A DNA stretch of 64,000 bases from Kineococcus xinjiangensis (GTDB lineage Bacteria; Actinomycetota; Actinomycetes; Actinomycetales; Kineococcaceae): contig NZ_PTJD01000002.1 of assembly GCF_002934625.1 (NCBI RefSeq), forward strand, positions 1-64,000, given 5' to 3'. A model generated the notes under the pieces. It saw nothing but the letters and a program-made list of their open reading frames with translations. It was not told the DNA's origin and did not search any database. A program made the position numbers and the translations under genes. Positions 3,472-5,052 of this stretch are shown here, one piece after another (within the stretch, counting starts at the first letter, position 1; every line of letters starts with the position of its first letter).

Positions 3472-3497
3472 CATGATCGCGCTCCACCCCGCGGCAT
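3472..3497. repeat. left-end intergenic repeat, copy C, interrupted by the IS element
   Basis: CATGATCGCGCTCCACCCCG CGGCAT runs up to the left end of the insertion element. The similarity resumes on the other side after the target duplication (GGGCGGGCGTGCGG from 4948). Joining the two flanks gives a sequence that aligns with copies A and B, so the element probably landed inside a copy of this repeat. Confidence 0.45.
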
Positions 3498-3533
3498 GGG
3501 ACTGTCCGATCTTCGGTGTAACTGGCCGGGCGG

Positions 3534-4864
3534 TTAGTGGGTGATGCGTCCTTCGAAGGTGATGGCGAAGGCGTTGAGGGCGGGCTTCCAGCGGGCAGCC
3601 CAGCGTGCCCTGCCCCGGCCAGTGGGGTCCAGCGCCCTGGTCGCGAGGTACAGGCACTTGATTGCCGCCTGCTCGGTCGGAAAGTGCCCCCGAGCACGGA
3701 CGGCGCGGCGGTAGCGGGCGTTGAGGGACTCGATGGCGTTGGTCGAGCAGATGACGCGGCGGATCTCCACGTCGTAGGCGAGGAACGGGATGAACTCGCT
3801 CCAGGCGTTGCGCCACAGCCGCACGATGGCCGGGTACTTGGTGCCCCAGACCTCGGCAAAGTCGTCGAACCGCGCCTCCGCCGCGGCGTCGCTCGGGGCC
3901 GTGTAGACGGGGCGCAGGTCCTTGGACATGCGGTCCCAGTCCGCCCGTGATGCGTAGCGGAACGTGTTCCTGATCAGATGGATGATGCAGGTCTGCACCA
4001 CCGTCTGCTCCCAGACCGCGGCGATGGCATCGGGCAGGCCGCGCAGGCCGTCGCAGACGAGGATGCACACGTCCTGCACTCCGCGGTTCTTCACTTCGGT
4101 GAGCACCGAGAGCCAGAACTTCGCGCCCTCGCCGCCGTCACCGGCCCACAGCCCCAGGATGTCCCTCTCCCCGGCGAGGGTGACGCCGATGGCCACGTAG
4201 ATGGGGCGGTTGGTCACCTGGCCGTCGCGGACCTTCACGTTGATGGCGTCGATGAACACGACCGGGTAGACCCGGTCCAGGGGACGTTGCTGCCACTCGG
4301 TCATCTCCGCGATCACCTTGTCGGTGGGGGCACCTCCCGCGCGAAGCGTGGGGGAATGCGCGAGACGGTGTCCTTGGACACCTGGGCTCCGTAGACCTCT
4401 GCCAGATGCGCGGACACCTCACCGGTGGTCAGGCCGCGGGCGGTCAACGAGAGGACGACCTCGTCGATGCTGTCCAGGCGGCGCTGCCGCTTGCGCACGA
4501 TGACCGGCTCGAAGGTCCCCTCTCGGTCCCGCGGCACCTCGATCTGCACCGGGCCGACATCGGTCAGCACCGTCTTGGTCCGGGTCCCGTTGCGGCTGTT
4601 GGCGCGGTTGCGCCCGGCTGGCTCGTGCTTGTCATAGCCGAGGTGCTCGCTCAGCTCCGCCTCCAGGGCCGTCTCGAGCACCGTCTTCGTCAGCCCGGTC
4701 AGCAGCCCACCGGGCCCGACCAGCTCGATGCCCTGCGCCCTGGCGGTCTCCACCAGCTCCTCAGCCAGCCGGCGCTGCTGCGCAGCGCCCAGCGGCCCGG
4801 CCGGCCGCTGCGTCTCCTGCTCCTGAGCCTGCTCCTCGGTCATGGGCGTGATCATGTCGGTCAT
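3534..4864 (-). pseudogene. IS256-family transposase, frameshifted by a 29-base insertion
   Basis: Two abutting reading frames encode the halves of one mutator-type transposase. The N-terminal half starts at the ATG at 4864 after GGAAGGA (MTDMITPMTEEQ). It runs through LGYDKHEPAGRNRANSRNGT and IEVPRDREGTFEP to KDTVSRI. The C-terminal half resumes at TDKVIAEMTEWQQRPLD and includes the catalytic-region motifs PVVFIDAINVKVRDG, the GLWAGDGGEGAKFW block with the second Asp, and STNAIESLNARYRR with the final Glu. The break lies exactly where IS256 proteins read SRITDKV. Twenty-nine inserted bases (4327-4355) shift the frame. A programmed frameshift is unlikely because the inserted sequence adds unrelated residues. 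Confidence 0.9.
4327..4355. repeat. 29-bp palindromic insertion inside the transposase gene
   Basis: Relative to the IS256 reading frame the extra sequence is GGGGCACCTCCCGCGCGAAG CGTGGGGGA. It can fold as a hairpin: CCTCCCGCGC pairs with GCGTGGGGG around a GAA loop, with two G-T pairs. Small palindromes of the form GGGGGCACCTCCC ... TGGGGGA are, from memory, common in Streptomyces genomes, often inserted into genes. I therefore read this as a miniature mobile palindrome rather than random mutation. Confidence 0.75.
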
Positions 4865-5052
4865 GCGGGGTCCTTCCCGCCAAGCCAGCCGGCTCGGCGC
4901 GTCAGGCCCGATCACTTACACCGTTGATCAGACAGTCCCCGCGGCATGGGCGGGCGTGCGGACTTGCCTCCACGGTGGGTCCGGCTCCATGGCGACTGGA
5001 AGGCCATCGGGCTCCAGTCGCTGTCCAGTGCCCTTTCCTTGGCGCCCGTCGG

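Follow-up and report, generated by a model that had tools for sequence, protein, structure and literature searches.

A 29-nt hairpin splitting an IS256-family transposase in Kineococcus xinjiangensis and its probable family of very small mobile palindromes in actinobacteria

Palindromes located within genes are already known from Rickettsia and other groups (available text of PMC3733652). In that text, the REP/GTAG superfamily with RAYT is made up of dispersed hairpins of 20-40 nt, some copies of which are intragenic, and GTAG repeats are named for Proteobacteria, Cyanobacteria, Chloroflexi and PVC; its main text does not mention Streptomyces, Mycobacterium or Actinobacteria. The CGTC palindromes, which include the Rickettsia palindromic elements (RPE), are described there as having in-frame copies in likely functional protein genes, with no dedicated transposase known and the route of movement open.

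Our studies concern a stretch of 64,000 nucleotides from Kineococcus xinjiangensis (the window), in which a 29-nt hairpin splits the transposase of an IS256-family element. Similar to REP/GTAG sequences, the hairpin and its relatives are short, dispersed and partly intragenic. Unlike them, GTAG is absent from the 29 kinds of left tetranucleotide seen at 107 collected sites of this hairpin, and no RAYT/Y1 partner gene was detected by PF01797 in the 12 genomes of the window's family. The in-frame copies that characterize the CGTC/RPE kind have apparent counterparts in pgi, a transketolase-type gene, acyl-CoA dehydrogenases and a GGDEF gene of Streptomyces-like genomes. In contrast to that kind, the present hairpin ends in TGGGGG and GGGGGA, CGTC is not among its left kinds (the right end, GGGGGA, is set by our search pattern), it also breaks transposases out of frame, and its hosts are different. 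MITEs are likewise small, non-coding and mobile; however, most forms of the hairpin measure 24-38 nt compared with 70-300 bp for MITEs (available text of PMC3733652), and the terminal inverted repeats and target duplication of a MITE are absent, as judged from a clean 29-nt gap in the window and from one pair of repeat units (L299, below). The hairpin is nearest in kind to intragenic REP/RPE palindromes; lacking GTAG and CGTC, and with no RAYT partner in the window's family, it is filed by us as neither. We found no published description of it as an element of its own in the literature searched, a scope outside which most subscription journals and bioRxiv fall.

The split IS256 element and its relatives

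The IS256-family element of the window has its ends at 3498 and 4939 and is intact apart from the 29-nt insert. Its features are as follows.

3490-3497, no strand: left 8-bp target duplication, CGCGGCAT (direct reading)
3498-3531, no strand: left terminal inverted repeat of the IS256-family element, a 34-nt arm 82% complementary to 4906-4939
3537-4325, minus strand: transposase, C-terminal portion, separated from the rest by the hairpin (match to Transposase_mut of Pfam at E=5.7e-85, covering profile positions 141-371 of 379)
4325-4326, plus strand: TG directly 5' of the hairpin, target or element sequence (TG stands before 81 of 107 collected sites and is native in 45 of 49 readable relatives)
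4327-4355, plus strand: 29-nt hairpin GGGGCACCTCCCGCGCGAAGCGTGGGGGA splitting the transposase (aligned relatives without it, family members elsewhere, computed fold)
4356-4915, minus strand: N-terminal part of the transposase in a stop-to-stop reading (450-codon frame once the insert is skipped)
4906-4939, no strand: right terminal inverted repeat, 34 nt, 82% complementary to the left arm
4940-4947, no strand: right 8-bp target duplication CGCGGCAT, identical to the left copy

Membership of the IS256 family is indicated by the match of the right half to a Mutator-type DDE transposase (Transposase_mut, E=5.7e-85), and by the 34-nt repeats with CGCGGCAT on either side; target duplications of IS256 elements are 8-9 bp long. 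As it stands, the transposase frame breaks in the window. The initial annotation held that the two halves join when 29 bases are removed and that the IS is otherwise intact, with inverted repeats and an 8-bp duplication. Both statements were borne out, as skipping exactly the 29 nt at 4327-4355 gives a single stop-to-stop frame of 450 codons and the repeats and flanking duplications are in place. Judging from the reading frames, the frameshift caused by the hairpin most likely abolishes the transposase, and the IS would then be dead unless another transposase acts on its ends. The IS is present only once in the K. xinjiangensis genome, so the arrival of the hairpin may have preceded or followed the landing of the IS. 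At 4327-4355, the minus strand also holds GGGAGGTG, which is like a ribosome-binding site, and the plus-strand CACCTCC within the hairpin is similar to the 16S rRNA 3' end. Copies of the hairpin could influence translation of neighboring genes.

Relatives of the IS lack the hairpin. Three plasmid copies from Rhodococcus and Nocardioides (L334, L335 and L336; 76.1, 75.6 and 74.6% DNA identity to the window IS) align to it with a single clean 29-nt gap between AT and CACC, and the flanking bases agree. A protein search of genome contigs gave 402 matches, of which 80 were fetched, and a motif search across the insertion site, which tolerates gaps only if they keep the frame and do not exceed 14 residues, yielded 49 readable matches in 48 of the 80 fetched loci. 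The spacing was 51 nt in 48 of the 49 and 48 nt in one, TG was native at the site (ATCAC) in 45, and the general hairpin pattern (defined below) was found in none of the 80 relatives. A search for intact copies had been proposed by the initial annotation, which would have given up its reading if all copies of the IS carried the 29 bases. The own genome holds no nearer intact copy, the best-ranked plasmid match being 76.1% identical, and both the three plasmid relatives and the readable loci are without the hairpin. The 29 nt are an insertion relative to the other copies of the IS.

Pattern, fold and distribution of the hairpin

Members of the family read GGGG[CT]ACC[TGA]CCC, stem-loop, GGGGGA, usually with TG in front. 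We searched for a strict pattern and for a general one (GGGG-N-ACC-N-CCC, 3-28 nt, GGGGGA), with the reversed pattern as control. In the own genome there were 5 strict and 11 general matches compared with no control match for either, so that the genome-wide count suggested in the initial annotation does not leave the palindrome without companions. Across the window's family, the general pattern was found in 10 of 12 genomes, with 44 matches in all and 0-1 control matches per genome. The 12-mer arm alone, with up to one mismatch, was no commoner than its control (175 vs 200 matches), and the informative signal is therefore the full hairpin only. Rfam gave no match above the gathering score for the window and seven further loci. 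At G000:C21:21593-21693 (L190, L013), the left arm GGGGCACCTCCC occurs three times at 36-bp spacing, the last running into a full hairpin, and a PNPOx-like gene adjoins.

Of 59 genomes of the family and its order, 4 have the strict pattern, counting the own genome. Among 394 genomes of the class there are 14 carriers, namely the own genome and 13 of the 39 genomes of genus g57. A looser pattern gave 115 summed matches in 30 of 197 class genomes, compared with 10 control matches across the 197; the most copies (32) were in G156 of genus g42, and where a genome belongs neither to the window's family nor to g57 or g42, a single match may be due to chance. Genus g57 is probably Streptomyces, all 8 plasmid records that match the 38-nt form being Streptomyces, and g42 is by inference probably Mycobacterium. 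The Streptomyces-like genomes carry mainly 34- and 38-nt forms, with 1-6 strict matches in each of the 13. The initial annotation called this type abundant in Streptomyces; the 29-mer itself, however, is the form of the window's family.

The hairpin appears to be maintained as a structure. Conserved outer arms enclose a variable stem, and the GGGG strand folds better than its complement in 62 of 66 distinct elements, an asymmetry for which the fixed arms account in part. The variable inner stem was therefore checked alone in 42 elements of five length classes, using up to four facing positions. It had 105 Watson-Crick pairs, 20 G-T pairs, 2 A-C pairs and 29 others; most of these others come from the 34-nt class, in which the register is displaced by a bulge. 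Bases that face each other covary; a single place of the 29-nt class, for example, has G-C, A-T and C-G. This covariation, together with the excess of G-T over A-C, indicates that the stem structure is kept on one strand.

Genes, reading frames and edges of the copies

Of the 44 matches in the window's family, 36 in 9 genomes were kept. Of the 8 set aside, six have GGGGGACC or GGGGAACC, and the other two overlap each other in G009 and lack the hairpin, which leaves G009 with no kept copy; one of the 8 (G011:C12) has a good hairpin and TG and may be a real copy. Transposase genes hold, in or at them, 17 of the 36 kept sites as a raw count. Pfam scored 15 of the 17 above cut-off on the scanned part, G005:C150:5550 lies inside a frame so scanned, and L195 is a 99.6% copy of the scanned L176. 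The sites are given below by Pfam and our own reading; where an IS family name goes further than the Pfam label, it is our reading, for which plasmid annotation gave help with the IS256, ISL3, IS5 and IS701 relatives.

IS256 transposase: window, L171
IS30 transposase: L124
ISL3 transposase: L125, L163
IS3-type transposase: L164, L186, L189
IS4/IS5-type transposase: three sites in L165, three in L193, and L178
IS701 transposase: L176 and its copy L195
Non-transposase Pfam genes, in or at (6 of 36 kept sites): HepT-like (L126, L166), aldo/keto reductase (L167), luciferase-like (L169), MMPL (L174), GH35 (L196, N-terminal edge)
Remaining kept sites: three with Pfam below cut-off (L159, L180, L183), three transposase by eye (two in L187, one in L129), one weak (L161), six without an assigned gene

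Nine Pfam-assigned genes have a copy whose length is not divisible by three. In eight of them the frame is restored when exactly the copy is taken out, the exception being L169; for L126 and L166, restoration is supported only by the joined reading, and a weak phase test disagreed. A variant hairpin outside the count lies in an IS5-like gene at G000:C3 (by eye), where reading across it restores the frame. The two IS4/IS5-type stretches of G005 (L165 and L193) each have three hairpins. In G003, a 1475-bp IS with a 24-nt hairpin is present twice with 99.6% identity and different flanks, which suggests that this IS moved with the hairpin aboard. Plasmid comparisons were less informative at several other sites: the IS3-type copy L186 had no plasmid match, L193 and L176 had distant matches only, the L176 alignment across the site was not clean, and the relatives of L171 differ from it at neighboring bases as well.

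Copies of Streptomyces-like genomes occur in conserved genes. Forty places were picked by BLAST for similarity to the 38-nt form; 32 have the palindrome by pattern and 8 were left out, so the shares that follow are no census. Sixteen of the 32 are in coding DNA by a phase test, with the GGGG strand sense in all 16. As they stand, 13 of the 16 are in frame, and the other 3 are in frame only without the hairpin. The in-frame peptides are of the type GGTSRSSxAESGG in 12 of 13 cases. The carrier genes include pgi, a transketolase-type gene reading as aceE, and genes for a GGDEF protein, a glutamine amidotransferase and acyl-CoA dehydrogenases. In pgi, the hairpin is in frame in two sequences (L134, L304), and 29 other fetched loci are without it. 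We considered and rejected the idea that these genes had gained exactly 38 nt net, as in-frame copies require multiples of three; the pgi copies imply a target loss of about 1-4 bases. In acyl-CoA dehydrogenases of three genomes (L343, L344 and L350), the hairpin lies directly ahead of position 28 in the profile of the middle domain, and the three thus share one protein-family position, as if the turn were a repeated landing site.

The left edge of the unit was examined at 107 collected sites (loci L124-L342), which are no census, are partly non-independent and likely include some chance matches. The two bases before GGGG are TG at 81 of the 107 and AG at 13, 26 sites being without TG, and the left tetranucleotides are mainly GGTG, GCTG and ACTG. 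The clearest case is a tandem array at G462:C45:13799-14202 (L299), in which one unit reads GCGGTG-AG-GAGGAG and its neighbor GCGGTG-TG-[24 nt]-GAGGAG, 2 nt having been exchanged for 26. In the ISL3 copy L125, AC is replaced by the hairpin where both relatives read GAC. No target duplication is seen around the hairpin at the window, L125 or L299 sites. These comparisons, one clear pair and one inferred codon, favor a unit that has TG as its first two bases and replaces two bases of the target. An element of exactly 29 nt fits the window alignment and was considered, but the L299 pair and L125 point to the TG start. The TG at 4325-4326 may therefore belong to the element, giving 31 nt with 2 target nt lost; the window itself cannot fix its ownership, since TG stands there natively in 45 of 49 readable relatives.

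The L299 array belongs to a wider pattern in probable Mycobacterium (G156, G462), where hairpins are nested in a repeat of about 50 bp, GATGCAGAGCGAAGCGATGAGGAGGAGCGGCGC. This repeat is in tandem in G462 and often has one or two hairpins inside. Its copies (L299 in G462; L238-L254 and L286-L296 in G156) have a MIRU-like layout and end just before a start codon. In G156, copies of the hairpin occur at three positions of the repeat, and in most cases TG stands in place of the AG of hairpin-free stretches (by eye); exceptions are L252, a second copy with AG, and L292 with TA. Units of 77 and 53 bp, a difference of 24 bp, are printed for MIRUs of the tuberculosis complex and also found between strains (available text of PMC2453075 and PMC4213456), two M. 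tuberculosis strains differing in this way (PMC4213456, same text), and the 24-bp difference is termed a deletion in the available text of PMC2640374. A 79-bp intergenic unit of BCG (position 3193555), listed as a deletion in BCG passages, holds the 24-nt form of the hairpin together with its TG (available text of PMC9870133), so that one mycobacterial copy has already been published. Judging from this printed unit and the printed unit lengths, the 24-bp difference may be the present hairpin. The BCG unit and the repeat of G156 and G462 are alike in containing the hairpin. In contrast, the MIRU unit is a host repeat rather than the hairpin, and the 24 bp are not treated as an element of their own in the available text of these papers.

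Mobility and possible routes of movement

Taken together, the comparisons support the view that this palindrome class is mobile, as its copies lie in unrelated genes, at differing sites and in both orientations, and related gene copies lack them; all filled and empty sites were compared between paralogues or between species. The initial annotation regarded the window as direct evidence of mobility. That the class moves is supported by the other cases; the single case in the window is by itself only suggestive. Based on these observations, we propose that the 29 bases of the window are one copy of a very small mobile actinobacterial hairpin family, moved by an enzyme-aided single-stranded route and sorted by selection, a reading to which we give a probability of about 0.7. 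The unit would move as a single-stranded hairpin, aided by a putative enzyme, and would be joined into new DNA without target duplication, about two target bases typically being exchanged for TG-GGGG...GGGGGA. Selection would then sort the insertions. Copies that shift the frame would be kept chiefly in genes that the host can spare, transposases among them, and those kept in conserved genes would be mainly in frame and read as a flexible Gly/Ser peptide. The enzyme may be novel, or may have been active in a former host. Covariation on one strand, the many sites, the absence of target duplication and the small edge exchange fit single-stranded movement by a dedicated enzyme.

A different origin, in which non-homologous end joining captures hairpin oligonucleotides at double-strand breaks and a few target bases are lost, is unlikely. 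The small and somewhat variable target losses and the missing duplication are what such capture would give, and Ku/LigD end joining occurs in mycobacteria and streptomycetes. However, the fixed outer arms and the strong preference for TG or AG at the left edge suggest specific recognition.

It is rather improbable, too, that the hairpin is a REP element and owes its movement to a Y1 (HUH) transposase of RAYT or IS200-IS605 type. Such enzymes act on single-stranded hairpins and make no target duplication, and the size, single hairpin, strand asymmetry and missing duplication all fit. RAYT/Y1 was at first favored as the main reading for a further reason, that in the window the GGTG preceding the insert might base-pair with a CACC within the insert (by eye). 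It was dropped when PF01797, the Y1 transposase profile, matched in none of the 12 genomes that make up the window's family, 9 of which hold kept copies. Outside the family, 7 of 17 genomes matched (7 of 28 in one search), including the copy-richest G156 (32 copies) and G252 (10), but there was no match in the copy-bearing G239 (12), G141 (7), G243 (5), G132 (5) and G249 (3), and the GTAG tag is missing. Several of the genomes without a match are drafts, and a Y1 enzyme may have been lost or have diverged strongly.

Movement in trans by the transposases of the invaded IS elements would account for the 17 of 36 kept family sites in transposase genes; it is nonetheless very unlikely, as the genes that were hit come from IS families unrelated to one another and the Streptomyces-like copies are located in conserved genes. 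That the IS carries the 29 nt as a programmed feature, for instance a segment that is bypassed or induces a frameshift, is hardly credible despite the location of the hairpin within the coding frame, given its absence from the 80 fetched relatives, the normal spacing at 48 of 49 readable sites, and CCCCCAC repeats at both ends 24 nt apart, between which hopping would not restore the frame (by eye).

The family supplies many actinobacterial insertions, some in hosts without a detectable Y1, in which filled and empty sites can be compared. Such pairs of sites make the movement of a hairpin of less than 40 nt directly testable. In addition, the hairpin supplies conserved enzymes with new peptide loops and breaks transposases. 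More tentatively, we can speculate on a wider role, in which an actinobacterial mobile element of about 26-40 nt, served by a kind of enzyme not yet linked to palindromes, would write a standard Gly/Ser peptide into housekeeping proteins and silence transposons through insertion into their genes, thereby shaping the host's proteome as well as its IS load, and its comings and goings in mycobacteria may underlie the unit lengths used in strain typing.
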